33,500 bases of DNA from Ruminococcus sp. (GTDB lineage: Bacteria; Bacillota; Clostridia; Oscillospirales; Ruminococcaceae): positions 1 through 33,500 of the forward strand of contig JAKSQT010000020.1 in NCBI GenBank assembly GCA_024403995.1. Direction: 5' to 3'. The position numbers and the translations under genes are program-made. The notes below the pieces were generated by a model that made no database searches, was not told the DNA's origin, and worked only from the letters and a program-made list of their open reading frames with translations. Of this stretch, positions 6,831 through 23,049 are shown piece after piece. How positions within the stretch are numbered: position 1 is the first letter of the stretch; every line of letters starts with the position of its first letter.

Positions 6831-8399
6831 TTACTTGGCAAATTCCTGCAATGTGCCGGTATATCCTGCCGAGCTTGAAGCATAGTAGCGGAGAATAAGC
6901 GATGCATCACGGGAATCGACCTTTTCGTCACCTGTTGCATCAGCCTGAGCAAGGTCGTATGACATCGGAATGTCCTGACTTGCCGATGCAAGCGCATATG
7001 CAAGTAAAGTACAGCTTGCGTCCCTTGCATCGATGATCCAGTCTCCGTTGACATCTCCGAGTGACGGTCTTTCCTTTGCCGACGGGTTGATGAGAATCTT
7101 GTTTATTGCAAATTTATCGGCATATGCCTCAGCCTGCGAATTGTCATAGCAGTAGAATGTTCCGTAAAAAAGCGATTTTCCTTCAAAGAACAAATTGTTA
7201 AGGAATGAAAACGGAATAGCATCTGCCTGTTCTTTCTCATCTTCTTCAAGCTCTGATTCCATATATGGCGGAATTTCGTTATCTATTTTCGTGCCTGAGC
7301 CTTTAAATGTGACTTTTTCCAGAGACATACACATAAGAAATGCACCAAATCCTACGGTTTCAAGCTTTTCAGGAAAAACTATCTCCTCAAGATCTGTCTT
7401 AGCTGCAAAAGCAAGGTCATCGACTCTTGTAACGGTATCAGGCACAGTGAATGACGTGGTTTTTGCTCCAAGAGGCACAGCAATAAGAGTTTTTCCGCTT
7501 TTGGCATACAACACTCCGTCAGCCGACATGAAATTTTTATTTGCTTTATCAACATTGAATTCCGTTGCCGAAACACAGAACATGAATGCTCCCTTTCCTA
7601 TCTTACTGACCTTTTCCGGAATCTCAAAAGCTTTGATCTTATCACAACTTGCAAACGCCAGCATACCGATATCCGTAATGTTTCCGCCTATCTTTATGCT
7701 TTCGGCTGTTTCGCAATTTGAAAAAGCCTCGTCTTTTATCGCCGTTACAGGCAGCGAATTTATCTCATCACCGATCTCTATTTTCTTATTTTCATCAACA
7801 TATTTCTCGTTATATCCTGATGCCTCATAATGATCAAACATAAAATCATACTTAACGCCGTCCACTTCACAGCTCAGGTCCTCAAAATATGATTCTCTGC
7901 CAAGCGGTATGTTCATCTTCTCCAAAGACTCAGGAACATTATCGTCATAGTATTCGGCAGTCTTGACAAATTCGCCTTTTTCATATCTGAATATCCTCAT
8001 CACCGAACTGCCGTTCTGCGTAATACAGTAGCCTATGTTCTTATTTTCTTCATCAGTATATACAACACCGTAAGAACCTAAAAAAACAGGCTTTGTAAGC
8101 ATATTACCGCTAAAGCTGTAGATCCTGACTGTTGAAACATCATATACTCCGTCTGATATCATAAGTTCAGGAATACCGTTGGAATCGAGATCCATGATCT
8201 GATACATAGAACAGCCGATACCGTACTGTTCCTTTGAATAAAAGCCGCTGCCGGAACTAAATGCAGTCAGAACTTCATAATAAGCCTCCTGCCATGTATC
8301 AAATGTCACTTTATCCGCTGCATTTACAGGAACAGCACACAATGAACCTGCACATAACATACCGGCTGTCATTGCCGCTGCCATTTTTTTAAAATTCAT
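6831..8399 (-). CDS. Secreted leucine-rich-repeat protein with C-terminal dockerin
   Basis: The 522-residue protein begins with a signal peptide (hydrophobic core to AVPVNAA near residue 28). Residues about 205-370 hold BspA-type LRR units such as ITDIGMLAFASCDKIKAFEI and VSKIGKGAFMFC. The last ~70 residues form a type I dockerin with two calcium loops, DVNGDWIIDARD and DATGDEKVDSRD, so the protein should dock onto a cohesin-bearing scaffold. No catalytic domain is visible. The start is taken at MNFKKMAAAM because AAGGAG is 9 bases before it, whereas it abuts the upstream ATG at 8408. A consensus promoter lies just upstream. The ligand of the LRR part is unknown. Confidence 0.88.
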   Translation of the reverse strand: MNFKKMAAAMTAGMLCAGSLCAVPVNAADKVTFDTWQEAYYEVLTAFSSGSGFYSKEQYGIGCSMYQIMDLDSNGIPELMISDGVYDVSTVRIYSFSGNMLTKPVFLGSYGVVYTDEENKNIGYCITQNGSSVMRIFRYEKGEFVKTAEYYDDNVPESLEKMNIPLGRESYFEDLSCEVDGVKYDFMFDHYEASGYNEKYVDENKKIEIGDEINSLPVTAIKDEAFSNCETAESIKIGGNITDIGMLAFASCDKIKAFEIPEKVSKIGKGAFMFCVSATEFNVDKANKNFMSADGVLYAKSGKTLIAVPLGAKTTSFTVPDTVTRVDDLAFAAKTDLEEIVFPEKLETVGFGAFLMCMSLEKVTFKGSGTKIDNEIPPYMESELEEDEKEQADAIPFSFLNNLFFEGKSLFYGTFYCYDNSQAEAYADKFAINKILINPSAKERPSLGDVNGDWIIDARDASCTLLAYALASASQDIPMSYDLAQADATGDEKVDSRDASLILRYYASSSAGYTGTLQEFAK

Positions 8400-8443
8400 A
8401 CGATTCATCTCCTTGATATTTATATCCCGAAAGGGATAATAGA

Positions 8444-8472
8444 ATTATATCATAAAAAAGTATAAAATGCAA
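8444..8472 (-). promoter_or_regulatory. Promoter of the LRR-dockerin gene
   Basis: On the minus strand TTGCAT (8467-8472), a 17-base spacer and TATAAT (8444-8449) preceded by TGA, making an extended -10. It faces the LRR-dockerin gene start at 8399. Confidence 0.75.
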
Positions 8473-8525
8473 GTGCTATTTTGTAAACTATGCCGACTGA
8501 AGAACACCATTCTTTTGTGCTTTGC

Positions 8526-8554
8526 TTGACAATAGGTTAAAAAATCAGTATAAT
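8526..8554 (+). promoter_or_regulatory. Promoter of the two-component operon
   Basis: TTGACA (8526-8531), a 17-base spacer and TATAAT (8549-8554), a full consensus match. The response regulator ATG follows at 8573, so the leader is short (about 12 bases) and the ribosome site (GGGTGATG) is weak. Confidence 0.88.
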
Positions 8555-8572
8555 ATATTCGGGTGATGAACT

Positions 8573-9250
8573 ATGCAGGCTAAAATAGCAATAATCGAGG
8601 ACGACAAGGAGATAAGCCGTATTCTTGCCGAAATACTGCAAAAGAACGGCTATGAAACAATGCAGGCATATGACGGAAAACAGGCAATGACATTATTTGA
8701 TGAAAATGAATTCGACCTCATTCTCATGGATCTTATGCTGCCGTTTATAAGCGGTGAACAGCTCATTCTCGGTCTGCGCCAAAAAAAGCAGACTCCCGTT
8801 ATCGTAATATCGGCAAAATCCATGATGGAAACAAAACTTGAAGTCCTGCGTCTCGGTGCAGATGACTATATCATCAAGCCATTTGACATAAACGAGGTCA
8901 TTGTCCGTGTGGAGGTCGTACTGCGGCGAAGTGCCATTCCAAAAGATAACGGCATGATCGAACTAAACGGTTTAATGCTGTTTCTGAATGAAAACAGAGC
9001 ATCATACAACGACGTTAATATCCCGCTGACTGCAAAGGAATTCATGCTTCTCAGCCTGTTCATGAAGCATCCGAAAAAAACATATACCAAGGCGGAGCTT
9101 TATGAAAATGTCTGGAATGATGTGTATTACTATGAGGACAATACCATAAACGTCCATGTGAGCAATCTCAGACAAAAGCTCAAAAAAGCATCGGGTCTTG
9201 ATTTTATCGAAACTGTCTGGGGCATCGGATATCGTCTCAGGGAGGATTAA
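8573..9250 (+). CDS. OmpR/PhoB-type response regulator
   Basis: A 225-residue DNA-binding regulator. The receiver domain (residues 1-120) has the acidic pair in IIEDDKE, the phosphoacceptor Asp53 in LILMDLMLP and the lysine in YIIKPFDI. The C-terminal winged helix (about 130-225) has LTAKEFMLLSLFMKHP, NTINVHVSNLRQKLKK and the closing VWGIGYRLRED. The kinase gene starts one base after its stop, so they form one operon. The convergent exporter genes next door are plausible targets, judged by the frequent pairing of such systems with ABC transporters; this is inference. Confidence 0.95.
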   Translation: MQAKIAIIEDDKEISRILAEILQKNGYETMQAYDGKQAMTLFDENEFDLILMDLMLPFISGEQLILGLRQKKQTPVIVISAKSMMETKLEVLRLGADDYIIKPFDINEVIVRVEVVLRRSAIPKDNGMIELNGLMLFLNENRASYNDVNIPLTAKEFMLLSLFMKHPKKTYTKAELYENVWNDVYYYEDNTINVHVSNLRQKLKKASGLDFIETVWGIGYRLRED

Positions 9251-9251
9251 T

Positions 9252-10154
9252 ATGTGGAGCATAGCAGTTATTACAACAGCAATTGCCGTTATCATGCTTA
9301 TCCATAATGTGAGGATCAAGCATGAACTGCGCTGCATCAGAAATGAACTTGCCAGATCTGCCGAACATTCATACAACAGACAGATATCAATAAAACTTTT
9401 CGACAATGACGTAAGCGCACTTGTCAAAGAGATAAACACTGCGATTGACCGACAGAAAATTCTTAAATATGAAAATGAACACTCGGAAAAGCTGCTGAAA
9501 CAGTCAATTTCAGACATCGCCCATGACCTCAGAACTCCGCTTTCTGTAATCAAGGGCAATTTGCAGCTCATCATGTCAAACGGCAGTATTTCAGGAAATG
9601 ATCTTGCCTATCTCGGAACGTGCCTTGAAAAGACCGATGTACTGCGGAATATGGCAGACGATTTTTTTGAACTGACACTTCTTGAAAGTGAGCATCAGTA
9701 TATTGAGCTTTCAAATGTGAATATGACAAATCTGCTTATGAAATTTATTGCCGACAGCGAAAGTGTAATAAGAATTGCAGGTCTTACACCTGAGATAAAT
9801 TTTCCGCCTAAACCTGTGATCGCTCTTGCAAATGAACAGATGACAGCAAGAATGCTCGGAAATCTTCTCGGTAATGTCGTAAAATATGCAAAAGAAAAAT
9901 TTTCGATCACGCTTTCTTCCGAAAACGACAAATGCTTCATAACATTTGAAAATGAATTGTCATCCGATAATTTCCCTGATACAGAGCATATTTTCGACAG
10001 ATGCTACCGTGCCGACAAATCCAGAAATTCAGGCGGCACAGGTCTCGGATTGTACATCTTCCGCCTCCTTGCTGAAAAACAAAACGGTAATGTAGGCGCA
10101 GAACTCAAAGGAAACTGCATAAAAATCCATGCATCATTAAAAAAAGCATCATAA
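9252..10154 (+). CDS. Sensor histidine kinase with a single short membrane segment
   Basis: A 300-residue kinase starting at MWSIAVITTA, with GGAGG inside the end of the regulator gene 6 bases upstream. There is one membrane segment (residues about 3-19) and almost no extracytoplasmic loop. The HisKA box ISDIAHDLRTPLSVIKGN carries His91; the ATPase domain has NLLGNVVKYAKE (N box) and SGGTGLGLYIFRLL (G2). No sensing domain is visible, so it resembles kinases that sense at the membrane or through a partner such as a transporter. It stops inside the hairpin that separates it from the convergent S41 peptidase gene. Confidence 0.93.
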   Translation: MWSIAVITTAIAVIMLIHNVRIKHELRCIRNELARSAEHSYNRQISIKLFDNDVSALVKEINTAIDRQKILKYENEHSEKLLKQSISDIAHDLRTPLSVIKGNLQLIMSNGSISGNDLAYLGTCLEKTDVLRNMADDFFELTLLESEHQYIELSNVNMTNLLMKFIADSESVIRIAGLTPEINFPPKPVIALANEQMTARMLGNLLGNVVKYAKEKFSITLSSENDKCFITFENELSSDNFPDTEHIFDRCYRADKSRNSGGTGLGLYIFRLLAEKQNGNVGAELKGNCIKIHASLKKAS

Positions 10155-10274
10155 CGGCGATACTCTTACAGATATTGTTACTTGTTATTGAGGGAAACCC
10201 TTTTGAAAAAGGGTTCTCCCTCAGAAAGGTTTGCCCCGATAAAAAGTAACAGTTCTGTAAGAGTATCGCCGTTA
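10152..10274. terminator. Nested hairpin repeat acting as two-way terminator
   Basis: A perfect 21-bp inverted repeat (10152-10172 and 10254-10274) extends by ten more near-perfect pairs (TGTTACTT / AAGTAACA). Inside it, AGGGAAACCC..GGGTTCTCCCT (10191-10221) forms a second stem. The left arm includes the TAA of the kinase gene; the right end is 7 bp from the stop of the S41 gene. A related copy is at 14733-14838, so this is also a dispersed repeat. Confidence 0.75.
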
Positions 10275-10281
10275 TGTGTTG

Positions 10282-11931
10282 TTATTTCAGATATTCAAGG
10301 GCATAGTCCATAACATAGTCCTTGTCATCGTCAAAAATAGCATGGGCAGCTTTTTCATCAAACGGAATGATGATATCTATGTCGTCTGATGCCTGACGTT
10401 CTGTGCCGGAATCTATGAAAATATCTCCGTTTCTGTCAAGCATAACTGATGACGAGCAGCTGAGTGAACCGTATTTCAGGTCAATCCCGCTTACGCCCTG
10501 AGCTGAACCGTTAGGCTGTGTGAAGCCCATAACAGTAGTGTTTTCAAATTCTCTCATGACCATAGTGAGATGGTCTGATGCACTTCCGCTGTATGAATTT
10601 ACAAGCAGAACAACTCTGCCGTCATCGCCGAGGATATTCTCTCCTTTCAGCGTAACATCTCCGTCAGGGATATACTTTCCGTCCTTGTCCTTTGAGAAAA
10701 TCTGCTGTTCCGTGTCCCATTTTGCGTCAGTAACATAGTAATGCTCGCCCTCCGGCGCAAAGCATGATGCCACCGCCTTGACAAGCTGACCTGAACCGCC
10801 CCCGTTGTTTCTGATATCTATGATAATATCCTTTATTCCCTCAGCCTGAAGCTTTTCAACTTGGGTTTTTATTTCATTTTTCATTTTTCTGTAAGCCGCT
10901 TCATCATCAAGCTTCTGAGTTTCCGTATCATACATCATCATTGAAATTCTGAGACACGCTGCTGTATCATTCATTTTCGTGAATGTAAAACTGCCTGCTC
11001 TTATATTGCAGTCTATTTTTTCCATAACTTTATATGCCCTGTCATAATAGCTTCCTTCAAGTTTCGGAAGTACGGCTTTTTCGGTCTGACCGTCATCATT
11101 TACAAATTCAACTTCAACGCTGTCTCCGCCTGTTCCGCCGCAGAATAATCCCTCATAGAATTTCTCGTTGTCGATATCGGCATATGAATTCATTTCATAA
11201 AATCTTGACTTTTTGTCAGCTTCATCAGGGGGCATTCCGTCCCAGCTTTTTATCTCGGTATATCGATGTATTCCAAGCTTTTCAAGTGTTTCATCCGCAT
11301 CAGCCGCAATAAATCTTCCGTCCGAAAGTCTGACGATAACAATTCCGTAGTCACTGCCTGATGCCCTTGAACACGCCTTTTCTATTGTTTCATCTTTTAA
11401 CGGCGAAAAACTTACATGACCGTCATGGAATTCGGCACAGAAACAGTTCCAGAGTATTGTATTTTCAACTTTGTCCCTGTCTTTTTCTGCTTTTCTGAAC
11501 TGCGGCATATACTTGTCATACAGCTTGTCCCAGTCGATTTCCTTGTGTTCGGTGAGAACGTATCTTCGTTTCATTATGTCGAAGCCCTTCTGAAAATCAC
11601 CTGAATAATCTTCTTTGTGATAAAGACTGCTGAACATACAGATCGGTACTGCTGCGATTATGCATACTGCGCTAATTACCGAGTTTCTCACTCTGAAACT
11701 GCGCTTTTCGCAGAAAAATCCTGATGCAAGCAGAAATACTCCTATGTATACGCCTGAAAGGCAGATGTCGATCACTGAAATTTCTGACATAAGCAAACAT
11801 ATCACCACAGGCAGCAGATAAAGCAGCTTCCATTTTGAACTCGGGGACTTTTCTGCAATTCTGCTGATATATCCGAGAACTATGCACATGATAAGTTCAA
11901 GGACTACCAGAATAATATCAAAATATGTCAT
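10282..11931 (-). CDS. Membrane-anchored S41 family peptidase
   Basis: A 549-residue protein with four predicted membrane segments (about 5-22, 36-54, 57-74, 84-102) followed by a large extracytoplasmic S41 (C-terminal-processing/tricorn-like) peptidase domain. The domain has FHDGHVSF with His172, the core IIIDIRNNGGGSGQLV (370-384) and the nucleophile region VLLVNSYSGSASD (441-453). The Ctp-type catalytic lysine normally found shortly after is not seen (GFTQPNGSAQG instead), so a tricorn-type His/Ser arrangement is more likely. AAGGAGG lies 7 bases before the ATG. It is the last gene of an operon with an ABC exporter. It may process or destroy an exported or foreign peptide; the substrate is unknown. 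Confidence 0.85.
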   Translation of the reverse strand: MTYFDIILVVLELIMCIVLGYISRIAEKSPSSKWKLLYLLPVVICLLMSEISVIDICLSGVYIGVFLLASGFFCEKRSFRVRNSVISAVCIIAAVPICMFSSLYHKEDYSGDFQKGFDIMKRRYVLTEHKEIDWDKLYDKYMPQFRKAEKDRDKVENTILWNCFCAEFHDGHVSFSPLKDETIEKACSRASGSDYGIVIVRLSDGRFIAADADETLEKLGIHRYTEIKSWDGMPPDEADKKSRFYEMNSYADIDNEKFYEGLFCGGTGGDSVEVEFVNDDGQTEKAVLPKLEGSYYDRAYKVMEKIDCNIRAGSFTFTKMNDTAACLRISMMMYDTETQKLDDEAAYRKMKNEIKTQVEKLQAEGIKDIIIDIRNNGGGSGQLVKAVASCFAPEGEHYYVTDAKWDTEQQIFSKDKDGKYIPDGDVTLKGENILGDDGRVVLLVNSYSGSASDHLTMVMREFENTTVMGFTQPNGSAQGVSGIDLKYGSLSCSSSVMLDRNGDIFIDSGTERQASDDIDIIIPFDEKAAHAIFDDDKDYVMDYALEYLK

Positions 11932-11942
11932 GTAAAGCCTCC

Positions 11943-12731
11943 TTATGAAAGATCGTCACGGTGATAGAACGAATAGCCGACAATGATGTATGCTGCGCTG
12001 ACGATAAGTGATACTGCTATGGTTTTTATCACATCACCCGACGAAATATATGTCTCGAAAATATAATTCGATGATGTTTCAAGTCCGAATGTGGCCCATA
12101 ATTCAAAATTGCCGATATACGATATATTAGTTATTGCAAAAAGAAACGGTGAACCTCCGGCAGAAAAAGCTGATATAAGCGAAATTAAAATATATACAAG
12201 ATACTGCACGATCAGCGGAGCAGCAACATTTTTGAATATATACGATACCAGAACAAGGAAACAGCTCATTCTCATTATCGGAAAAGCCGCAATAAATAAC
12301 CTGAATACGAAAACCTTTGCAGGAATATAGCCGCCCCAGCCATATAAAGCAGTTATGATGAGAACATCTGCGGCTATCAATGCTATTGAAAACAGCACGG
12401 AAAATGGTATGGTAATAATTACTCTTGCAAAAAATGACTGTTTACGCAGAGTTCCCGACATTGTTTCATAATTCATGGTCTTGTCGCCGAAATCAGATGC
12501 ACATACATAGCCTGTAAAAATGGCTGTGAAAAATGAAACAAGAAGCCATATCATGGAAATAGCCGATGAAGCCATGAATGATGCTGTAGGCTCAATTTCA
12601 GGCGGAACAGAACCAACGCCTATCATATATGTCATAGCCAGAGATAATGCCAGAACACCGAAAAAGGCTATATACAGGAAACGCTGTGATTTCAGCTGAT
12701 AAAGCTGTGCTTTTATTATATTTTTCATCAT
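11943..12731 (-). CDS. ABC-2 type transporter permease (second)
   Basis: A 262-residue integral membrane protein with about six hydrophobic segments. It begins with a short cytoplasmic helix (IIKAQLYQLKSQRFLYIA) like that of its neighbour and has the layout of ABC-2 permeases used for peptide or antibiotic export and immunity. The two adjacent ATGs (MMK) are preceded by GAGGTG; the second is better spaced. Six bases separate it from the upstream permease and 11 from the S41 gene. The two permeases share the N-terminal KAQxYQxK pattern, which points to duplication and a heterodimeric pore. Confidence 0.85.
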   Translation of the reverse strand: MMKNIIKAQLYQLKSQRFLYIAFFGVLALSLAMTYMIGVGSVPPEIEPTASFMASSAISMIWLLVSFFTAIFTGYVCASDFGDKTMNYETMSGTLRKQSFFARVIITIPFSVLFSIALIAADVLIITALYGWGGYIPAKVFVFRLFIAAFPIMRMSCFLVLVSYIFKNVAAPLIVQYLVYILISLISAFSAGGSPFLFAITNISYIGNFELWATFGLETSSNYIFETYISSGDVIKTIAVSLIVSAAYIIVGYSFYHRDDLS

Positions 12732-12737
12732 TTCACC

Positions 12738-13532
12738 TCAGTTCACATCAGATTTGCTGAACAGGATATATCCGCCGAAAAGGAATACAGCCGCTGTGAT
12801 GAGCGAACCGCATGACACTCCGGTAAGCAAGGACTGCGAAACGGTATCAACTGCCGTCATAACGTCTTTTCCGTCAATATATGACAGCGACATATTTCCT
12901 AAATTTATAAGCTGTATACTGCTGAAAAGCGGTATCACATGATCAAAAACACCAAAATCCGGATATGCTTCTGACAAGATCAGATTTATTATCATTTCAG
13001 TCATTGTAAATACAAAGCCGATAATATAGCCTGCCATATCCTGTTTTATGATGAAAGTCAGTGCAGAATAGAAACAGGTCATTCTTATTATAGGGAATAT
13101 CTGGAATGCTGTTCTTATTATGCCGTCTTTTTCCGGCATGATAACTCCCCAGCCGTTTTTACAACTGAAAAATACAAGCGGAAGAACTATCATGGCAAGG
13201 AAAAGTATTATGCTGAAAAAAAGTGCAGTGAAAAATCTTCCGAAATAAATGCTTCTCCGCTTTGTACCGAACATTATCTCATAATTCACGGTTTTGTCAG
13301 CCTGATCTACGCCGCATATCCTGATCACTGCCGCTATGGCAAAAAAGTAATAAAATACCAGAATATCAGACAGATGACTAAATACCAGACTTCCGGTTAT
13401 TTCAGAAAAGGCATAATCTGTCCCAAACAGATATATGCTGAACCCCAGCAGCAATACTACGCCGAATGCCATAATATACGTCACTATATCATTTTTTATC
13501 TGATAAAACTGTGCCTTCATTACATTGTACAT
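12738..13532 (-). CDS. ABC-2 type transporter permease (first)
   Basis: A 264-residue membrane protein with about six hydrophobic segments. The start is taken at MYNVMKAQFYQ, with AGGTG six bases upstream; the frame also opens at a GTG (13541) and an ATG (13538) slightly upstream. It overlaps the ATPase gene by 44 bp, so translation is coupled. The N-terminal MKAQFYQIKND motif and overall plan match the following permease. With the ATPase it should form an exporter; the substrate cannot be read from sequence. Confidence 0.85.
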   Translation of the reverse strand: MYNVMKAQFYQIKNDIVTYIMAFGVVLLLGFSIYLFGTDYAFSEITGSLVFSHLSDILVFYYFFAIAAVIRICGVDQADKTVNYEIMFGTKRRSIYFGRFFTALFFSIILFLAMIVLPLVFFSCKNGWGVIMPEKDGIIRTAFQIFPIIRMTCFYSALTFIIKQDMAGYIIGFVFTMTEMIINLILSEAYPDFGVFDHVIPLFSSIQLINLGNMSLSYIDGKDVMTAVDTVSQSLLTGVSCGSLITAAVFLFGGYILFSKSDVN

Positions 13533-14445
13533 TATCATCACCTACCAGACTCATATAATATTCTTCAAGATTTGCATCGTTCATGTGAATTTCAAGAGGA
13601 ATTATCCCGTTTTTATAAAGCGTTTCCGAAATAAGACGTATCTCGTCAAGCCGCTCATACAGCCTTACGGAACTGTCCTTTTCCACAGAAATACCAGTGA
13701 TATTGAGAACATTCTGCAATACCGCAGGCACAAGGGAATCGTTGTCAGTGTGGATATGGATATATTCGTGGCACTGCTTTGAAAGCTCATCAGCAGAAAG
13801 TGTTTTGATTATCTCTCCTTTGCGTATGAATACATAATCGGTACACAAAAGCGAAAGCTCCGAAAGGATATGCGACGAAATTACTATCGTTATATGCTCC
13901 TCACGGTTGAGTTTGAGAAGCAATTCACGTATCTCGACGATACCTTCGGGATCAAGTCCGTTTATAGGCTCGTCAAGCACCATCAGTTCAGGCTTTGAAA
14001 GGAGCGCACCTGCAATTCCGAGACGCTGTTTCATACCAAGCGAAAAGTTCTTGACTGTTTTTTTGCCCACGTTTTCAAGACCTACAAGCTTCAATACCTC
14101 ATCTATCCTGTCCTTGTTAGGTATCCCCTTTTGCAGACGGAGCTTTTCAAGGTTCTGTCTTGCAGTCATGTTCTGCTTTGCATACGGAGTTTCAATGATG
14201 AAGCACATACGTGTGCGTGAATGGGCAAGACCTTTTTCCGTTGTTTCGCCGTATAGGCTTATTGTGCCTTTTGTCGGAAGAATAAGACCTCCCAAAGCCT
14301 TCATTATCGTGGTCTTGCCTGCGCCGTTCGGGCCGACAAGTCCGCATATCATGCCTTCACGAATCTGAAAGCTTGCATCTTTTACGACCGTATTTTTCAT
14401 AAACTGTTTATCAAAATTTCTTACGTCTATAAGAACATCTGACAT
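13489..14445 (-). CDS. ABC transporter ATP-binding protein
   Basis: A 318-residue ATPase. Walker A is GLVGPNGAGKTT (about residues 35-46), the signature is FSLGMKQRLGIAG, Walker B is LMVLDEPINGLD and the switch histidine is in VISSHILSEL. The last ~100 residues form a variable C-terminal region typical of the CcmA/BcrA-like group that serves ABC-2 permeases. AAGGAGGT stands 8 bases before the ATG. It is the first gene of a four-gene unit with two permeases and an S41 peptidase, convergent with a two-component operon. Bacitracin- or lantibiotic-type immunity is a reasonable comparison but is not shown. Confidence 0.93.
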   Translation of the reverse strand: MSDVLIDVRNFDKQFMKNTVVKDASFQIREGMICGLVGPNGAGKTTIMKALGGLILPTKGTISLYGETTEKGLAHSRTRMCFIIETPYAKQNMTARQNLEKLRLQKGIPNKDRIDEVLKLVGLENVGKKTVKNFSLGMKQRLGIAGALLSKPELMVLDEPINGLDPEGIVEIRELLLKLNREEHITIVISSHILSELSLLCTDYVFIRKGEIIKTLSADELSKQCHEYIHIHTDNDSLVPAVLQNVLNITGISVEKDSSVRLYERLDEIRLISETLYKNGIIPLEIHMNDANLEEYYMSLVGDDNVQCNEGTVLSDKK

Positions 14446-14557
14446 ATCTATGACCTCCTTGTTATTTTCTATGATTTTATTCTAAATCCAATTTATAAAG
14501 AATTTCTTAACTTCTTTTAATGTTTACAATTTGTTCATATTTATCAAAAAATATATA

Positions 14558-14715
14558 GGGCACCTCTAAAAACCCGTTTTGAGTAAGAAAAAGCAGATAG
14601 GTACAGTAGATGCAAGAAAAGCCATCGAAGGCGTGCTTTCGCACTACGAGAGGGCTTGACGCAGCAGATGCTGTGCATAGCTGATTTTTCTCAGAAGGGG
14701 TTTTTAGAGGTGCCC
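14558..14715. mobile_element. MITE-1 element, complete copy (158 bp)
   Basis: Ends GGGCACCTCTAAAAACCC and its complement form imperfect inverted repeats of about 35 bases. TATA occurs directly outside both ends (14554-14557 and 14716-14719), a 4-bp target duplication. The copy is inverted relative to that at 33083 and differs at about two of 158 positions by eye, so spread was recent. It holds no gene; short open frames across it are chance. It lies upstream of the ABC exporter operon. Confidence 0.88.
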
Positions 14716-14732
14716 TATAGAACATCCGCTAT

Positions 14733-14838
14733 AAAGGCGGTACCAATATAGAAGTTTTATACTTATTATTGGGAAGAACCTTTCCTCAGAAAGGTTTGCC
14801 CCGATAAATAGTAAAACTTCTACACAAGTACCGCCGTT
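14733..14838. repeat. Second copy of the nested hairpin repeat, behind the pilus operon
   Basis: Left arm GGCGGTAC..TAGAAGTTTTA and right arm TAAAACTTCTA..GTACCGCC are inverted. The middle contains CTCAGAAAGGTTTGCCCCGA, identical to the middle of the repeat at 10152-10274, and the right end CCGCCGTTA matches the other copy's ATCGCCGTTA end. The outer arms have diverged between copies while staying complementary within each copy. It begins 26 bp after the stop of the last pilus gene and may end its transcript. Confidence 0.7.
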
Positions 14839-14839
14839 A

Positions 14840-14854
14840 CTTTGTGCGGTGTTG
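14840..14854. repeat. Fragment of a MITE-2 end
   Basis: CTTTGTGCGGTGTTG is identical to 15 of the 17 terminal bases of MITE-2. It starts right behind the stop codon of the sortase-like gene (10 bp away) and directly before the hairpin repeat. Too short to prove descent alone, but several other gene ends in the window show the same piece. Confidence 0.55.
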
Positions 14855-14864
14855 AATTTGTTGA

Positions 14865-15458
14865 TCAGCTTTGATGAGCGCAGCATACAATGATATGATC
14901 GTGCGATCTTCTTGAATTTGAGAATAATAACAGATCATACTCGCCGCTTTTTTTCAGATCATTGTCAATGTCTTTTGAATGCCTGACCGCATCAACAGTG
15001 AATGTGAATACTGCACCCGTCATATCAGTAACAGTTACTTTTTCACCGATGTCAATGTCAGAAATAAAGTCAAACTGACCTTTGAAATCTGCACCTCCTA
15101 TTATCAGTGAACCGTCATAACAGCTTCCTCTGAAACGGCACGGCGATGGGTCAGAAAACTGATTCTGCCATGAAGAACGAACAGGAATATGGACGGAATG
15201 AGCCTGAATATCAAGTAATGCGGAGTAATCCGTACCGCCAAAATTTATAACAGGCATACGTACATCCGAAAGCTGTTCCTGTTGTCCGGGATATGAAGCT
15301 GTCAGTATCTCTCCGATAAAAACGGCTGCATCAGTATTTTCATCTGTATTCTTTTTTGCACTATACGCAGAAAACAGATACAATCCAGCACAGGAAACAA
15401 TGATGACCGTGAAAAAAACAAGAACCGATCTTCCTATAATTTTAGCTGTTTTTGTCAT
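14865..15458 (-). CDS. Sortase-fold protein lacking the catalytic residues (pseudosortase)
   Basis: About 197 residues: a membrane anchor (about 8-31), then a domain that follows the sortase pattern: VHIPVRSSW, SPCRFRGS..DGSLIIGG, FISDIDIGEKVTVTDMTG and a final strand IIVCC. Active relatives, as I recall them, read AGHN, LFTCT and RVTVRC at three key places; here the sequence reads GGAD (His to Ala123), LFSNS (Cys to Asn181) and HIIVCC (Arg to His188). All three catalytic residues are thus missing while the fold pattern is kept. The start is the ATG with AAGG 8 bases upstream; a GTG two codons earlier is possible. The gene overlaps the preceding CnaB gene and closes the pilus operon. A structural or regulatory role in pilus assembly is inference. 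Confidence 0.75.
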   Translation of the reverse strand: MTKTAKIIGRSVLVFFTVIIVSCAGLYLFSAYSAKKNTDENTDAAVFIGEILTASYPGQQEQLSDVRMPVINFGGTDYSALLDIQAHSVHIPVRSSWQNQFSDPSPCRFRGSCYDGSLIIGGADFKGQFDFISDIDIGEKVTVTDMTGAVFTFTVDAVRHSKDIDNDLKKSGEYDLLLFSNSRRSHDHIIVCCAHQS

Positions 15459-16629
15459 TTTCACGCCTTTTTCCGATATATGTGAGTATGCAGTATAATC
15501 CGAACGGCACGCTTATTGCAGTGATATACGGCACTAAGCTGAATGTATCGCCTGTTTCAGCAGCCTCATCATCTGAAGATGAACCTGACGTTGATTTTTT
15601 TTTCTTTGTTGTGGTTACGGAAGAAGAATCTGAACCGCCTGTTGCACCTGTATTTACTGTGTTTTCACCTGTATCATCATCTTCGGTGATATCAGAATCA
15701 TCACGTTTTCCTTCGTCTCCATCATCTCCGGAATCATCACCGTTTCCGCCATCATCGTCATCGGTATTATCATCGTCTTCTTCATTATCACCTGTATCGT
15801 CTCCGCCAATAGGCCAGAGGGTATTGATAATGAAGAATGAAGTATCATTCTGTGCTATCTCAACATCATATCCGCCCGGTATAAACCTTTCAACTACGTT
15901 CCATTCCAATGAAGCGTCTGCATTCCATTCGTACATCCAGTTGTTTTTTTCACTGAGAATGACCGACTCCGCAAGTTCACCGTCGCAGTATATATCGGCA
16001 GTTACCGAGTCTGTACGGTATTCGGGAAAATCACGCCATTCCTTTATAACACGCATTTTTACCAGATCACTTTCCTTGATGGAGCGCACGCCCTTTGTGT
16101 GGACATCAGAGGAATATACCCATTCATTCTTTTCACCAAGCTGCGGAAGCGCTATCACAAACGGCGAAAATACAGTAACAGCATCGGCATTTGTTTCCGT
16201 TATTTTTCCCGCAAGATACAGACCGCACGGAAGATCGCTGAATGAAGCTCTGCCTTCGGAATCGGTCTTTGCAGTATATGACGGTCTGATATTGTCAGCA
16301 ACAATATATGAATACAGTGTCGAGGCAAGCGTATTCCATTGTTTCTGTGATGAAATTCCGTTTATATTAAGCTGATAACCGCTGTAATCTCCGCAGAGTG
16401 TGAATTTTGCTTTTTCATCAGGAACTGCAAACCTGTAAAGCCTGACATCAGTTCCGCCGAATTTTTCATCTCCGCACTTCATAGTTACATTCAATGAACA
16501 TCTTCTGGCTGTATCGATAGTATTGACAGCATCGATAGTATTGGCTGCACAGGCGGAAAACGCAGACTGTGAGATAATGAGGAATACTGCAGTCACAGCC
16601 GTGAGCAGTTCAATAATATATTTTTTCAT
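15442..16629 (-). CDS. CnaB-domain surface protein with acidic stalk (probable minor pilin)
   Basis: A 395-residue exported protein. Order: signal peptide (1-29); an N-terminal domain with a CnaB-like segment (SLNVTMKCG to SPFVIALP, about 45-162); a Cna_B domain (about 190-270, from MRVIKEWRD to FFIINT); a stalk rich in Asp and Glu (277-322); a Ser/Thr/Lys linker; and a C-terminal sorting-type tail with a hydrophobic segment (364-385) and GKRRENDKNS. The tail motif reads AAETGD where LPXTG is expected. The ATG overlaps the sortase stop by 4 bp (ATGA), with GGGGAGG upstream. It is likely a tip or base subunit of the pilus. Confidence 0.82.
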   Translation of the reverse strand: MKKYIIELLTAVTAVFLIISQSAFSACAANTIDAVNTIDTARRCSLNVTMKCGDEKFGGTDVRLYRFAVPDEKAKFTLCGDYSGYQLNINGISSQKQWNTLASTLYSYIVADNIRPSYTAKTDSEGRASFSDLPCGLYLAGKITETNADAVTVFSPFVIALPQLGEKNEWVYSSDVHTKGVRSIKESDLVKMRVIKEWRDFPEYRTDSVTADIYCDGELAESVILSEKNNWMYEWNADASLEWNVVERFIPGGYDVEIAQNDTSFFIINTLWPIGGDDTGDNEEDDDNTDDDDGGNGDDSGDDGDEGKRDDSDITEDDDTGENTVNTGATGGSDSSSVTTTKKKKSTSGSSSDDEAAETGDTFSLVPYITAISVPFGLYCILTYIGKRRENDKNS

Positions 16630-17471
16630 TCGTTTTCCTCCCCGAAATTTATTTCTGTATTCTGTTTTTTCGGCTGCGGTTTTTTAAGCATTACCATCAT
16701 AAACAGGATAAAAATAATCGGTATCGCAAGAAATCCTGCAACAACTATTTCGTCAATTATGACAGCCTCCGAGATAACAGAAGTACCGCTGTTTTTGTTT
16801 TCAATCCTGTGTCCACGGACAAGCAGCCTTTGTGTATTTATGCCATACGGAGTACAGGTCACAAGAGTGCAGTAATCCTTGCCTTTTTCGCATTTCAGCT
16901 CATCAGCCTCGTCGGGTTCGACAGTACGTATCATGTCAACCTCGTATGTCATTTTTTCATTGAGGATATTCAATTCAAACGTATCGCCCTCACGCATCTT
17001 ATCAAGATCAGTGAAAAGAACGGCACTTCTGAGTCCACGGTGACCTGATAATACACAGTGATTTCCTTCGCCGCCTGTCGGGAGAGATGTCCAGTCAATA
17101 TGTCCGACAGCAACCTGAAGCACATTTTCTTCCGTGCCGTGGTATATCGGAAGCTGAACGCCAATGCACGGTATCTCGATATATCCCATGATTCCCTGTC
17201 CGTCAGGATCAAGCAGAGAATTGTATTTTTCAAGCTCTGCATCTGAAAGTGCAAACGGATTTTCACGTTCATTCAGTTCTGAATTATATTCAAGCGCATC
17301 ATTCCACATTTTCCGATATTCCTCTGCATTGATTTTATCAAGGGAATCAGAATATTCTGTAATAGCTCTGGTTGAATGCATACTGTTCCAGAGATCGCTT
17401 ACAGTTGGATACAGCAACAGGGACAGACCTAACAAGCATATAAAAATCATGATCTTTGTAGTTTTTTTCAT
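16626..17471 (-). CDS. srtC: Class C (pilin-polymerising) sortase
   Basis: A 281-residue transpeptidase that links pilin subunits through their LPXTG motifs. It has an N-terminal membrane segment (7-22), a lid region with ENPF near residue 71 (class C enzymes carry a lid of this kind), the substrate-pocket segment IMGYIEIP, His144 in LSGHRGL, Cys206 in TLVTCTPYG and Arg215 in NTQRLLVRGHR, then a second membrane segment (239-262) typical of class C. All catalytic residues are present, in contrast to the sortase-like gene at the end of the operon. The ribosome site GGGAG is some 12 bases from the ATG, so initiation may be modest. Confidence 0.95.
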   Translation of the reverse strand: MKKTTKIMIFICLLGLSLLLYPTVSDLWNSMHSTRAITEYSDSLDKINAEEYRKMWNDALEYNSELNERENPFALSDAELEKYNSLLDPDGQGIMGYIEIPCIGVQLPIYHGTEENVLQVAVGHIDWTSLPTGGEGNHCVLSGHRGLRSAVLFTDLDKMREGDTFELNILNEKMTYEVDMIRTVEPDEADELKCEKGKDYCTLVTCTPYGINTQRLLVRGHRIENKNSGTSVISEAVIIDEIVVAGFLAIPIIFILFMMVMLKKPQPKKQNTEINFGEENE

Positions 17472-17499
17472 AGCTTTAAGTTTCTCCCTTATGCTGTAT

Positions 17500-17522
17500 C
17501 GGAGGGGAATATCTCCCCTCCG
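17500..17522 (-). promoter_or_regulatory. GC-rich hairpin between backbone pilin and sortase genes
   Basis: CGGAGGGGA and TCCCCTCCG form a perfect 9-bp stem with a 5-base loop, 11 bp after the backbone pilin stop. No T-tract follows on the minus strand, so it is not a standard terminator. It could protect the pilin mRNA from 3' decay or cut read-through into srtC, giving many pilins per sortase. Confidence 0.6.
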
Positions 17523-17533
17523 TCAGCAAAAAA

Positions 17534-18967
17534 TTAACCTTCGTTATAAAGTCTCTTTTTAGTTACAAGAACAACGCCGAGTCCGACGAAAAGTACTCCG
17601 CCGACTGTCAGAAGAATAGCCGTGCCCTTTCCGCCTGTTTCAGGAAGCTCTGTACCTGCACTGTTCGGTATTTCTATTACTGTTTCACTTCCATCTGCTG
17701 AAAATTCTATTTCAACAGGATCAACAAGTAAATTATATCCCTTCGGAGCAGCTATTTCCTTGAGAGTATATCTTGGAGCAAGTGCAGTCTGACCTTCAAC
17801 TTTCACACCGTCGCAGTCAAGTCCGTAAATTGTTATCGCATCTGATTCAACAGTAACAATATCCTGAGTAGCTGTTTCGCCGCTTAGAGCAAGACGATAT
17901 TCCGTACCACTGAGCTTTACAAGATCAACAGGAGTATTTCCGCCGTCATAAAGCTGGAATTTTGCACCTGCAAGAGGTTTTTTCGCTTCATCGCCGTTTT
18001 TATATTTCAAAAGCTGAAATTCTGAAGTTTCAGAGGTTACAGATGAAGCTGTTACAGAACTCTGGTCACCAAAAGTCATAGTGGCTTTATTTGTAAGAGA
18101 ACTGTTTTTATCATATGCATCGCCGTTTACTGTTGCAGAATATTTAATAGTGATATTCTTTTCTTCGGTGATCGTGTCAAGATAATCCTGATCGAATATA
18201 ATTCTGAATGTGTAATTTGTTCCTGATGCTGTATCAACTGTATAATCTGTGTTTGCCGTAAGGTCGCTGACTGTTATGCTGTCCGGAACAAGTGTGAGAC
18301 CTTTGGGCATTGTATCCATGAATACATAATTTTTAGCGCCTTTCTGAGCTTTGATATCAACAGAATACGCAATTGTATCGCCTATTGCAACGTTGTCTGT
18401 ATCAGCACTTGCAAGTTTCTTTTTTAATGTTGGCTGTTTATTCTTCTCACCCCACTGCGGATCAGGCTCACCCGGTGTTGTATCGAGCATAGCGCAGTTG
18501 CCTACACTTGAAACAACAAGATAATATCCCGGGTCGGCAAATTCAAATTTCACACTGCTTCCCGAAACGGCTGTGATCTCCTCATCTGCTTTCGTTTTGC
18601 CGCTATATATTTTATTTGCCATAATGAATTCAGCAAGTGCAGCTGCGTTTTTATCAGTAATATCTGTTACATTGCCGCCTGTTACCGTTATAAACTGTGC
18701 GCCGCCCTTGTCAGATGTATCATTAAAGAAAGATTTCCATTCATCGCTGACAGTGTATGCGTAATTATATTTTTTTCCGTTTTCGCTGTATGTAAGATCA
18801 AATACTTTATAGACATTGTATTTTTCTCCGATAAGCGGATTCATCACCGTAATGCTGTATGTAGGATCTTCAGCATAAGCTGTAAATGATGAAAATGAGA
18901 ATGCTGAAATCGTAACGGCTGATAAAATTGATAATGCTGTGGATAATAATCGTTTTTTAGTTTTCAT
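17534..18967 (-). CDS. Backbone (major) pilin, LPXTG-anchored
   Basis: A 477-residue exported pilin. The signal peptide ends near residue 32 (FTAYA). An N-terminal adhesin-like domain is followed by a fimbrial isopeptide-forming (D2-type) domain around VFMDTMPKGLTLVPDSITV and a C-terminal Cna_B domain with the E-box YTLKEIAAPKGYNL. The cell-wall sorting signal is LPETGG, then a hydrophobic stretch and KKRLYNEG. The start is MKTKKRLLST, with AAAGGA about 9 bases upstream. It directly precedes srtC, the usual order. Which lysine links subunits was not determined. Confidence 0.92.
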   Translation of the reverse strand: MKTKKRLLSTALSILSAVTISAFSFSSFTAYAEDPTYSITVMNPLIGEKYNVYKVFDLTYSENGKKYNYAYTVSDEWKSFFNDTSDKGGAQFITVTGGNVTDITDKNAAALAEFIMANKIYSGKTKADEEITAVSGSSVKFEFADPGYYLVVSSVGNCAMLDTTPGEPDPQWGEKNKQPTLKKKLASADTDNVAIGDTIAYSVDIKAQKGAKNYVFMDTMPKGLTLVPDSITVSDLTANTDYTVDTASGTNYTFRIIFDQDYLDTITEEKNITIKYSATVNGDAYDKNSSLTNKATMTFGDQSSVTASSVTSETSEFQLLKYKNGDEAKKPLAGAKFQLYDGGNTPVDLVKLSGTEYRLALSGETATQDIVTVESDAITIYGLDCDGVKVEGQTALAPRYTLKEIAAPKGYNLLVDPVEIEFSADGSETVIEIPNSAGTELPETGGKGTAILLTVGGVLFVGLGVVLVTKKRLYNEG

Positions 18968-19016
18968 AATATTTTTCCTTTCGAGTAATTTGTGCAGTTT
19001 TCGCAGAACATACAGA

Positions 19017-21776
19017 TCATTCCTCACCCGCCGGTCTGCGTTTATTTTTGTATATGCAGTAATGCATAAAAGCTGCTGCTGAGATCAGCAGTATGCCTGA
19101 GATATAGATAATTACAGTACCTGTGCCGCCTGTGGCAGGAAGTTCAACTCCCGGCACATTGATTACTGTTATATGGAGCAGTTTGCCGCTTAATGAAATA
19201 TCCGTATAGCCGCTTACGGCATTGGTATCCGTTGTAAGCTGAAATGCTTCATCAACTTTAAAGCGTATCGTGTCAGACGGCGGAGAATATCCGTCAGGCG
19301 GAGATATCTCTTTCAGTGTATATTCCGTACCAACGTTAAGGAAAACATCATCAGGCAGAGATGCCTTTCCGCTGCTGTCTGTTTCAAGTTCATACACAGA
19401 AACATTTCCGTCATAAATGCCGAACTTAACATTTGCAAGCGGAACAGCGCCGCTTCCGGTATCTGAACGTTTCAGAAGTTCAAGAGAATATACCTCACAC
19501 TTTTTATTTTTGATAATAAGATCTTTTACCTCAAATGTGTTATATTTGACATATGACAGATCAGCTACTGAAAAATCCTCATTTATGCCGTCTTTGTTTT
19601 CATCTATGGCAGAATATTCTGGCGGCGCTTTTGTTTCCTTTAAAGAATACTTTCCGGGCGGAAGTCCCGAAACAGTAACATAGCCGCTGCTGTCTGACCT
19701 TATCGCTGCTGATATGCCTCCTGACATCGGAGAATATACATATTTGTCGTATGCAAATGATACATTGACAGGCTTTCCCGAACTGTCAGTCAAAGTAAAT
19801 TCTCCATCCGGAAGAGGTTCGTCTGTGTCAATATCGACAAGCTGTGTCCGGAAACTGTATTGTCCGCCACGAACAGTTGGTGATTCAAAATCAGCAAAAT
19901 ATATCTTATTCTCATTTTCTGTCAGCTTGTATTGTATCTTGGTTTCACTGTTTGTATCGTATATCTTTTCTTCCTTGGTATCGTCAAGTTCTGAAAGCTG
20001 ACTTACACCTTTGAAACCTTCTTTTGCTGTATCAAGCTTTATTTTATAGATAAGCTGATAGGCGTTTTTCTGTGCGTAATATTCTTTAATAACATTTCCG
20101 TTTGCATCTTCATCGCCTGTAACATATTCAAAAGCAGAATTCGGGTCATCCAGACCTGTTGCCTCGTTTAGGGTAAGATCTTTATTCGGTTCTACGTTTG
20201 CAAGACTCCATTTGAGCATTTTTTCTTCATCATCATAATCTGCCTTGCCGTTAATTTCCAAGATCTGAAAGCTTTCACCATCGATATAATCACCAAGTTG
20301 ATCCTTAATGGTAATTGAGAGTGTATCATTCTCAATTTTTCCGAATTCAGAGCTGTCATTGAACTTGACATCAGATACGGGATCAAGCCACTGCATCAGG
20401 TCAACACCGTCATTTATCATACTGTTATAAACGACAAGCGGTATTTTTAAAGTACTGCTTCCTTCCTCATAAGAAATTCCCGATGCTGACTTATGCGTTG
20501 TATATGTTCCTTTGCTGTTCTGAACGCTGTAAACAAAACTAAGTCCGCTTGTTGTTGATATGGACATATTCAGGTCAGCATTTTCTTTTCGCACCGTAAG
20601 ATATCCCGAAGAATTCGGATCAGGTATCTGGAGTTCAATAGCTGTTATCCTGTGAAGATTTTTTGCAATATTATTTAATTGTTTAATACTTGAACATTCC
20701 GGAGGAAAAGGGTCTGAAAATTCTGAAAAATATGACAGACCTCCTGCACTGATCTTGTCATTTAAAGCTGCTGCCGTCATATAATTCGGATTATCTGTAG
20801 AAACGCTGAATCCAAATTCAAGTTCAAAGTCATTCTTACTGCCGCTTATCGCCATATCCAAGTTTCCGAACATTGTTCCAAGATCTCGTGTAAAAACAGG
20901 TTCAACAGTAAGACAGATATAAAACTCATCTTCATTTCCCGCAGGGAGAATTGTTTTTTTCAGCCTCAATACAGGTTTCTTCGTATCCTCATTTTCAACA
21001 AGTGTATATACTGTTTTTCCTTCCTCACCAGAAACTACCTGCCATTCATTTGCACGATTCTTACCATATGTACCTGCAAAATCAACAGGCTTACCTGTAG
21101 GCGTTTCATCGCCAAGCAGCATTATTTTTCCGACAGCCGAACCAACTGTAAGAGCATCGACCATGTCTGAATATTCATCGACCATTTTGCAGAGCGAATT
21201 ATACTCAGTCTGTGAAATTGACTGTTCACCGTAGTACGCATCATCAAAAGGCTGATACATCTCATTCAGCGAATCATATGCATCCGAAACCGAATCAATA
21301 TCATCCGCATCAAGGCTGTCAATAATTTTCCTGCACTGCGATACAGTAACATCATGCAGTTTTTTCGCCTGTGCAATGCATTCTTCCGAATGAGTATGTT
21401 CGGAAAGCGTACATTTAAGTGTACCGTCAGAAAAATAACATTCATCACTATGCATATGCTCAGGAAGTCCGCATACAAAGCCGTCATCAGCCGCAGGCGG
21501 AGCATCAAAGCATTCATCTCCGTGAATATGTTCTTCGATCTGACAGGTCATCCGCATTTCGCCGTTTTCATCAACCGTATAGCATGATGCATCATGTATA
21601 TGCTCCTTTTTTTCACATATCAGTGTCTTTTCCCACGTTATTGCAGGAATTATAAGAGCATATGTCGTAACAAACACAACAACAGCCGAAAGGAACGACA
21701 GAACTTTGTACCATCGTCGCCGTCGCTGATATCGAATATTATATTTTGTAGTCTGATTTTCGATATTTGTTTTCAT
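19017..21776 (-). CDS. Large ancillary pilin/adhesin with Cys-His repeats, LPXTG-anchored
   Basis: A 919-residue exported protein. The signal segment WYKVLSFLSAVVVFVTTYA (22-40) is of a type common in clostridial LPXTG proteins. Residues 54-133 hold four units with the pattern C-x3-EH-x-H-x3-C (starting at 54, 78, 102 and 122). A long middle region (about 210-640) has no domain I recognise but is placed where adhesive domains usually sit. Two Cna_B domains follow, each with an E-box (YSLKETKAPPEY, YTLKEISPPDGY). The tail is LPATGG, a hydrophobic segment and KNKRRPAGEE. TGGAG precedes the ATG. It is probably the tip or ancillary subunit. Confidence 0.88.
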   Translation of the reverse strand: MKTNIENQTTKYNIRYQRRRRWYKVLSFLSAVVVFVTTYALIIPAITWEKTLICEKKEHIHDASCYTVDENGEMRMTCQIEEHIHGDECFDAPPAADDGFVCGLPEHMHSDECYFSDGTLKCTLSEHTHSEECIAQAKKLHDVTVSQCRKIIDSLDADDIDSVSDAYDSLNEMYQPFDDAYYGEQSISQTEYNSLCKMVDEYSDMVDALTVGSAVGKIMLLGDETPTGKPVDFAGTYGKNRANEWQVVSGEEGKTVYTLVENEDTKKPVLRLKKTILPAGNEDEFYICLTVEPVFTRDLGTMFGNLDMAISGSKNDFELEFGFSVSTDNPNYMTAAALNDKISAGGLSYFSEFSDPFPPECSSIKQLNNIAKNLHRITAIELQIPDPNSSGYLTVRKENADLNMSISTTSGLSFVYSVQNSKGTYTTHKSASGISYEEGSSTLKIPLVVYNSMINDGVDLMQWLDPVSDVKFNDSSEFGKIENDTLSITIKDQLGDYIDGESFQILEINGKADYDDEEKMLKWSLANVEPNKDLTLNEATGLDDPNSAFEYVTGDEDANGNVIKEYYAQKNAYQLIYKIKLDTAKEGFKGVSQLSELDDTKEEKIYDTNSETKIQYKLTENENKIYFADFESPTVRGGQYSFRTQLVDIDTDEPLPDGEFTLTDSSGKPVNVSFAYDKYVYSPMSGGISAAIRSDSSGYVTVSGLPPGKYSLKETKAPPEYSAIDENKDGINEDFSVADLSYVKYNTFEVKDLIIKNKKCEVYSLELLKRSDTGSGAVPLANVKFGIYDGNVSVYELETDSSGKASLPDDVFLNVGTEYTLKEISPPDGYSPPSDTIRFKVDEAFQLTTDTNAVSGYTDISLSGKLLHITVINVPGVELPATGGTGTVIIYISGILLISAAAFMHYCIYKNKRRPAGEE

Positions 21777-21850
21777 TGTTTACTCCATTTTTCACTATCA
21801 GAACTTTTTCATTGGCAAATTCTGTTTGCGCCGCCTATATGAAAAAGCTT

Positions 21851-22462
21851 TTAATCAACTATTCCGAAATCCTTGAGAGGCCACACTCTGAAAACAATTT
21901 TTCCTACTATATTATCATAATCTATGCAGCCAACCGAAGAATTACGGCTGTCTATTGAAGTCGCTCTGTTATCCCCCATTACAAAAACAGAATTTGCAGG
22001 CACCTGATACGGAAGTGTGATATTTATATCTCCAAGAGCTTTTGTTCCTTCAGGAAGATATGGTTCGTCGATCGGCTTGTCTTTACAGTCAGTATATACA
22101 AAAACATTTCCGTCATCATCAATATCCACCCATTGCCCTGCCGTTGCAATACAGCGCTTTATCAGCACTTTGCTGCCGAAATAGACACAGACAGGATCAC
22201 CGCATTCTATATCAGCGCCTTTTATCGATACTACTATTTCGCCTTCCCTCAGAGTCGGGGACATTGAATTTCCGTAAATTCTGAGCACAGGCATGAACAG
22301 AACGGCAACGAGTACAGCAGAAGCTGCTACAACAATAAGTGTATATATCGTACTTCTCAGCAGCTTTCTGAAACGTGAATTTCTGTTGACACGTTTAAGT
22401 TCAGATTCAAGCTGTTCAATTTCAGGAGCTGCTTTGCTTTTATTGTTTTTTTTCTGCTTCAT
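21851..22462 (-). CDS. Type I signal peptidase of the pilus operon
   Basis: A 203-residue membrane peptidase. A charged cytoplasmic N terminus of about 33 residues is followed by one membrane segment (38-60), then the catalytic Ser66 in YGNSMSPTL, the general-base Lys102 in VLIKRCIA and the box VFVMGDNRATSIDSR. It should remove signal peptides of exported proteins. Placed between a small coiled-coil gene and the ancillary pilin, it is probably dedicated to the pilins, as in several Gram-positive pilus islands. GAGGAT lies 8 bases before the ATG. Confidence 0.93.
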   Translation of the reverse strand: MKQKKNNKSKAAPEIEQLESELKRVNRNSRFRKLLRSTIYTLIVVAASAVLVAVLFMPVLRIYGNSMSPTLREGEIVVSIKGADIECGDPVCVYFGSKVLIKRCIATAGQWVDIDDDGNVFVYTDCKDKPIDEPYLPEGTKALGDINITLPYQVPANSVFVMGDNRATSIDSRNSSVGCIDYDNIVGKIVFRVWPLKDFGIVD

Positions 22463-22523
22463 CAGATCATCCTCTTATGATACAGCATTATCACACAAAA
22501 ATTATGCGGCGATGCCTTAGAAA

Positions 22524-22868
22524 TTATTTCCATTTTTCAGCCTTTTTCTTTGCTTCGGAAATAATTTCATCAGCTTTAATTCTTGCATCATCAAGTATTT
22601 TTTCACATTGTATCCTGCATTCTTCATCACGTTTTTTTATATTTTCAAGATATTGCTGAGCTGCCGCATCGACAGCCTTGTACACACCGTTAAGTGAAAA
22701 AACTGCCTCTGCAAGAGTTCCGGCATTCTGAATATCTATCGTCCTGTCACTGAGCTGAATGCGTGTTTCTTCAAGTTCTTTTGCAAGTTTTTGCTTTTCT
22801 TTTTCTTCTGCTATAAGAAGTTCAAGAAGTTCTTTTCGGCTTAACCGCCTTAATTCCTTATCAGTCAT
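22524..22868 (-). CDS. Small coiled-coil protein, first gene of the pilus operon
   Basis: A 114-residue soluble, strongly charged protein beginning MTDKELRRLSRKELLELLI, with AAGGAA upstream of the ATG. Residues about 15-45 and 78-112 are predicted coiled coil (AEEKEKQKLAKELEETRIQL; AKKKAEKWK at the end); between them is AGTLAEAVFSLNGVYKAVDA. I recall similar short proteins beside sortase and pilin genes in other Clostridia but know no function. It comes directly after the operon promoter and precedes the signal peptidase by 61 bp, so it is likely a cytoplasmic helper of pilus assembly; this is inference. Confidence 0.7.
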   Translation of the reverse strand: MTDKELRRLSRKELLELLIAEEKEKQKLAKELEETRIQLSDRTIDIQNAGTLAEAVFSLNGVYKAVDAAAQQYLENIKKRDEECRIQCEKILDDARIKADEIISEAKKKAEKWK

Positions 22869-23004: not shown

Positions 23005-23049
23005 TAGCATATGATAAATTTTTTGTATAAAATAGCAATACGGCATCAA

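Follow-up and report, generated by a model that had tools for sequence, protein, structure and literature searches.

Sortases are usually treated as enzymes only. In this study, we analysed a gene at the end of a pilus operon of Ruminococcus sp. (GCA_024403995.1, contig JAKSQT010000020.1), the predicted product of which is a sortase homologue that has lost the catalytic His, Cys and Arg. The gene lies in a stretch of 33,500 nucleotides, called the window below, and all coordinates refer to that whole window; G, C and L numbers are our handles for genomes, contigs and loci. The closest described systems resemble this protein in part. SipA of Streptococcus pyogenes is a signal peptidase homologue that has no catalytic residues and is needed for pilus polymerisation (PMC4049620), which indicates that inactive pilus helpers exist. 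SipA is like the dead sortase in being an inactive homologue of an envelope enzyme encoded by a pilus-operon gene; it belongs, however, to the signal peptidase family, and its role in assembly has been tested. The class C sortase, the pilin polymerase, shares with the dead protein the sortase superfamily and the operon, but differs in its intact catalytic residues and in a hydrophobic segment at the C-terminus. The nearest relatives are active sortases encoded at the ends of pilus operons (active terminal sortases below), which stand in the same place after a minor pilin gene, but have kept the catalytic residues and have a partner pilin with a TG...WP-type tail. Text searches, the coverage of which lacks most subscription journals, did not find a natural dead sortase family; in the portions of the literature available to them, "inactive sortase" refers to an engineered inactive sortase C of L. 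lactis.

The initial annotation, made from the letters of the window, had proposed a sortase-like protein with a membrane anchor and with Ala, Asn and His in place of the catalytic His, Cys and Arg. The gene and the three positions are as follows.

14865..15458, minus strand: pseudo-sortase, 197 aa, with an N-terminal hydrophobic segment followed by a sortase-like domain; last gene of the operon
15090..15092, minus strand: Ala123, at the catalytic His position
14916..14918, minus strand: Asn181, at the catalytic Cys position
14895..14897, minus strand: His188, at the catalytic Arg position

The start codon is the ATG at 15458 and the stop is at 14865. This ATG was preferred over the GTG at 15464 given by the ORF finder because the ribosome site GGAAAAAGG lies seven bases upstream of the ATG, and the limits first assigned to the gene (14865-15458, 197 aa) were thereby borne out. 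A hydrophobic stretch, read by eye, is found inside the first 35 residues and is taken as the N-terminal membrane segment. In an alignment of 145 family members, the residues of the window protein at the His, Cys and Arg columns are indeed Ala, Asn and His, so that none of the three catalytic residues of an active sortase is present. The GQFDF, TDMxG and PxRxxGS motifs are kept. No match was found in plasmids.

Profile comparisons identify the window protein as a homologue of the sortase superfamily. PF04203 (Sortase) matched it weakly (E 0.0028, under the gathering score) and, at E up to 1, matched 14 of the 15 dead homologues, with a best value of 7.8e-7. The profile of the dead family (15 homologues) aligned with that of the active terminal family (20 homologues) over its full length of 197 columns with a probability of 100% (E 1.4e-46), and with class C sortases at 95.7% by hhalign (E 9.2e-9). 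The best solved-sequence matches of the dead family were sortases (E 0.0026 and 0.0078), and the active terminal family matched a solved class C sortase with a profile E of 2e-17. Together with the hydrophobic stretch, these results uphold the proposed sortase pattern and membrane anchor, and a sortase barrel fold is predicted from the profile comparisons. The class C model NF033745 (cut-off, 160 bits) did not match the window protein at E up to 10; it matched 7 of the 15 dead members, the best at E 4.6e-6 and far from the cut-off. With E values up to 1 allowed, none of the 15 gave a match to the class B model TIGR03064. By these models, the dead protein is neither class B nor over the class C cut-off. 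The five active terminal sortases scanned (e.g. L032:8399-9097) matched the general model TIGR01076 only and passed no NCBIfam class cut-off; these enzymes apparently represent an unclassed sortase group with a signal of its own, namely a minor pilin with a constant WP-type tail. The class C sortase two genes upstream had been offered as the active contrast. It is present at 16626-17471 with all three residues, and it is active and in the same operon as claimed, but the nearest active relatives of the dead protein are the separate terminal sortase family.

A search of the genus (125 genomes) gave a match in 94; 30 loci were fetched, of which 28 were active-type with AAHNY-, TCT- and SRVTVR-like blocks, the exceptions being the window and G089. 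A third dead protein (L043) came from a Clostridia metagenome-assembled genome of water-buffalo caecum (JAFYNW010000215.1). The profile built from these three (A1) was searched over 394 genomes of the order and found dead copies in twelve further genomes at 137-180 bits, the active copies that were read scoring at most 131; a 396-genome family sample held no further dead copy among the loci read. A profile of 15 rows (A3), searched over the family of G858 (63 genomes) and a 391-genome class sample, found further copies in both, with dead copies at 182 bits or more and the active copies read at 151 or less. Four matching genomes outside the class were found in a 398-genome phylum sample, and all five of their loci were active. 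Dead copies occur at 26 places in 23 genomes, spread over ten family codes of one class (G513 has no family code). Matches below 70 bits to the family profile and copies identical over their final 110 residues (G886 was counted together with G599) were left out of the counts; the triad was read at loci whose DNA was fetched, and lower-scoring matches of the searches stand outside the counts.

The loss of the catalytic residues was all or none. Among the 145 distinct members, 119 carry His, Cys and Arg, one is an active form cut by a contig end before the Arg, and 25 carry none of the three; members with one or two residues lost numbered 0 of 145. In the active rows, the His and the Cys are each found in 120 of 120 and the Arg in 119 of 120, the exception being the cut row. 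The triad loss seen in the window is therefore conserved among homologues. At the former Cys position, the 25 dead rows have Arg (14), Lys (8), Glu (2) or, in the window copy, Asn, and at the former Arg position they have Tyr in 24 and His in the window copy. Of the active rows, 93% have a second His close to the active site; the dead rows have Gln there in 24 of 25 cases. This Gln lies in the motif GG(S/T)DxKGQFDF, which stands where the active rows have AAHNYxSHFG. Residues frequent in the dead rows are Gln128, Phe131 and Gly121 (24 each) and Gly127 (23). Positions common to dead and active rows include, in window numbering, LPV, Trp97, Pro106, Gly111, TD, Gly148 and Phe179. Given that these shared positions are kept while the active-site motifs are replaced, the scaffold stayed and the pocket region changed.

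Maximum-likelihood trees were built from 86 rows with the catalytic columns removed and with class C sortases as outgroup; 24 dead rows were long enough for inclusion. All 24 formed one clade (SH-aLRT 100 in the first tree and 100/100 in the careful run), and every one of the 200 bootstrap trees separated them from the other rows by a single branch, the bootstrap being not fully settled. The class C sortases formed a clade separate from the terminal family. Since the dead clade is nested within the active family, catalysis was lost, and independent losses of the triad are ruled out by the single dead clade. The clade thus arose inside an active terminal sortase family whose genes come last in pilus operons, behind the gene for a minor pilin with a TG...WP-type tail. 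The copies of G820 and G884, compared over 121 codons, gave a dN/dS of 0.17; for the other listed dead pairs (43-73% identity), pS was 0.65-0.92, at or near saturation, and pN was 0.17-0.41. Purifying selection therefore acts on the dead clade, as measured on relatives of the window copy. A lone pseudogene is ruled out for the clade by the 25 all-lost members of 145, the single clade and this dN/dS, and the decay alternative raised in the initial annotation is to that extent rejected.

The remaining genes of the operon in the window are as follows.

15442..16629, minus strand: minor pilin, 395 aa, with matches to PF16555 and NF033902, both below cut-off; its 3' end overlaps the start of the pseudo-sortase gene
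15547..15564, minus strand: AAETGD, at the place of the minor pilin sorting motif (sequence reading)
16626..17471, minus strand: active class C sortase with His, Cys and Arg; NF033745 match over cut-off (E 2.7e-79)
17534..19027, minus strand: major pilin with an LPETGG anchor
19017..21776, minus strand: large SpaA-domain pilin, probably the tip, with an LPATGG anchor
21851..22462, minus strand: signal peptidase I (PF10502), upstream of the pilin genes

The order large pilin, major pilin, class C sortase, minor pilin, dead sortase is conserved at the loci with enough upstream DNA, and ORFs of about 200 aa occupy the signal-peptidase position in several dead-type operons. The expectation that the gene accompanies pilin operons held: 22 of the 25 dead genes directly follow a gene whose product has a pilin-like hydrophobic membrane tail, two have no upstream ORF in the examined stretch, and that of G1156 directly follows a class C sortase gene. 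The genome of the window also offers a closer active contrast than the class C sortase, namely a paralogue that has His, Cys and Arg and is encoded by the last gene of a second pilus operon (G000:C103).

The sorting signals of the partner pilins differ between active and dead loci. A hydrophobic pilin tail is encoded upstream in 98 of the 120 active rows; in 13 there is no ORF upstream, and in the remaining 9 the upstream ORF lacks such a tail. As scored by script, TG followed by a WP-type stretch occurs in 91 of the 98 active partners vs 2 of the 22 dead partners, in both of which the WP is preceded by GD or TGE (Fisher 6e-15, a value that ignores relatedness, the dead rows being one clade). 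The string LPQTGQLWWPV recurs to the letter in 32 active partner tails. Conversely, TG[DE] is found in 18 of 22 dead partner tails vs 1 of 98 active ones, PxTG[DE] in 16 of the 22, and all 22 retain the hydrophobic tail. At two loci of active terminal sortases, L207 (G536) and L159 (G601), the upstream minor gene has no LPxTG in its last 60 residues and keeps WWPIPV or YWPIPV.

Many dead-type tails resemble a signal read by another sortase class. In C. difficile, the single sortase SrtB, of class B, cleaves PPKTG, SPKTG, SPSTG and SPQTG peptides (PMC4155245). A motif of this (S/P)PxTG type is carried by 12 of the 22 partner pilins of dead sortases; SrtB itself is an active class B enzyme, unlike the dead protein. 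Because of this resemblance, a class B sortase is the likeliest candidate for joining these pilins. All 11 of the dead-bearing genomes that were inventoried encode a class B-like sortase, which scores over the TIGR03064 cut-off in nine of them; in G858 and G841 it falls short of that cut-off. One class B sortase gene of G941 directly adjoins, or overlaps, the end of a gene encoding a protein with the tail PPQTGDSS... (L232:8-1630 on G941:C11, the product ending in PPQTGDSSRIELW...), and the two proteins are likely, judging from gene position and tail, to be an enzyme/substrate pair. Genome-wide, the [SP]PxTGD pattern occurred at 19 places in eight dead-bearing genomes. Five of these are the dead operons' own minor pilins, and two of the others resemble C-terminal signals (G858:C70 and G941:C11); the backward control pattern gave 7 places.

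Taken together, the retention of the dead clade and the altered tail of the neighbouring pilin suggest that the protein plays a structural part in the assembly or holding of the pilus. We consider it about evenly balanced whether the pseudo-sortase is, as sequence and analogy point to, a non-catalytic partner of the minor pilin, the joining of which would have passed to another sortase, perhaps of class B. The ancestor would have been an active terminal sortase with the minor pilin as its substrate. The dead protein, anchored in the membrane, would still bind the minor, probably basal, pilin and hold or present it, and the covalent step on this pilin would have been taken over by another sortase, most likely a housekeeping class B enzyme. 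The pseudo-sortase would then work like SipA, as an inactive helper.

Several observations weigh against this proposal. The window copy is the most divergent of the clade, without its usual Arg/Lys and Tyr. The (S/P)PxTG pattern is missing from 10 of the 22 dead-type tails, and the window's own, AAETGD, has lost the Pro; among the four tails without TG[DE], those in G841:C22 and G679 have no TG, that in G810 has PSPGD with the TG displaced by two residues, and that in G089 has PPKTGI. A WP is still present further on in 6 of the 22, which indicates that the old signal was altered and shifted, not replaced whole. Mapped onto the tree (74 rows), TG[DE] requires six changes, which we read as one main change with later losses. 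The dead gene of G1156 has no minor pilin before it. Active-bearing genomes are equally rich in class B sortases, with 25 of 25 matching TIGR03064 and 20 over the cut-off; in this control, class B sortases thus failed to distinguish dead-type genomes, and their presence shows a possibility only.

The same tails bear on the idea that the minor pilin is not joined at all. Its tail might stay uncut in the membrane and be clamped there by the pseudo-sortase, giving non-covalent anchoring instead of wall linkage; the tails that lack or displace the TG, the lost Pro of the window's tail, the hydrophobic tail in 22 of 22 and the continued company of the minor pilin and dead sortase genes favour such a membrane-held base, but TG[DE] is kept in 18 of 22 tails, more than expected if no sortase reads them, and we regard it as unlikely. 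A further proposal, in which a clade of sortase-dependent pili within one class of bacteria has lost its dedicated joining enzyme, now turned into a non-covalent membrane socket that holds the pilus base, with the signal of the basal pilin drifting or switching to match, is put forward tentatively, as doubtful. The pseudo-sortase could instead be a regulator or cofactor of the operon's class C sortase, steering or stopping polymerisation while class C joins the minor pilin. The script labelled a class C gene upstream in 17 of 25 loci (the label missed at least one, L031, and L198 was not listed), and at G1156 the dead gene comes directly after the class C gene in the absence of a minor pilin. 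However, the LPxTG-type motifs of the large and major pilins at the loci listed lack the following D/E, in contrast to the minor pilin, and it is not evident that one enzyme would serve them all; the active terminal sortases have the same neighbours yet are not dead. We therefore hold a class C regulator to be quite unlikely.

Within a real clade, the window copy might still be on its way out, but this seems improbable. Its end branch is the longest of the 24 dead rows (1.36), it lacks the Tyr and Arg/Lys of the clade, and the selection figure comes from relatives; but 197 codons have stayed open after long divergence, and the ribosome site, the overlap with the pilin gene and the GQFDF, TDMxG and PxRxxGS motifs are kept. 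The residues that replaced the triad raise a further possibility, that Arg/Lys in place of the Cys and Tyr in place of the Arg, both conserved, form a new active site. Arg or Lys is present in 22 of 25 rows and Tyr in 24 of 25, and an Asp at the position following the former His goes with Arg in 13 of 14 rows and with Lys in 1 of 8. The window copy, however, has Asn and His at those positions, and the Asp-Arg link comes down to four independent pairs, of which three agree and one shows no difference (p 0.25). The pattern is suggestive of coupling between Asp and Arg in the former active site, with too few independent changes, and new chemistry appears most improbable.

Other elements of the window were also recorded. 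A MITE-like element with 33-nt inverted repeats 100 nt apart is found at 14554-14719, just past the pseudo-sortase gene, and at 33083-33241; the first 40 places listed in the genome of the window (40 of 112 candidates scored) share 90% identity or more with it, nearly all of them over most of its length. Between the first element and the end of the pseudo-sortase gene lies a palindrome (14732-14839) with 28-nt arms that are 82% complementary, which may be a terminator or another repeat. Rfam gave no match within 8400-24000. Dockerin type I domains are present on a BspA-type repeat protein (6831-8408) and a CBM6 protein (23560-25236), and might indicate that the genome encodes a cellulosome-like system.

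As a pseudoenzyme, the dead sortase belongs to a known superfamily, and its pilus operon is likewise of a known type; what is unusual is the joint change of enzyme and substrate signal. The initial annotation had taken loss of the triad without frameshift or stop to suggest a non-enzymatic job, and that suggestion gains support from the conserved dead clade, its pilin company and the purifying selection in relatives. An old clade of single origin without the triad, almost always found beside one pilin with a differing signal, would be a natural separation of sortase binding from sortase chemistry. The dead sortase would give SipA a counterpart among the sortases, and through it the hand-over or holding of a Gram-positive pilus at the base becomes open to experiment.
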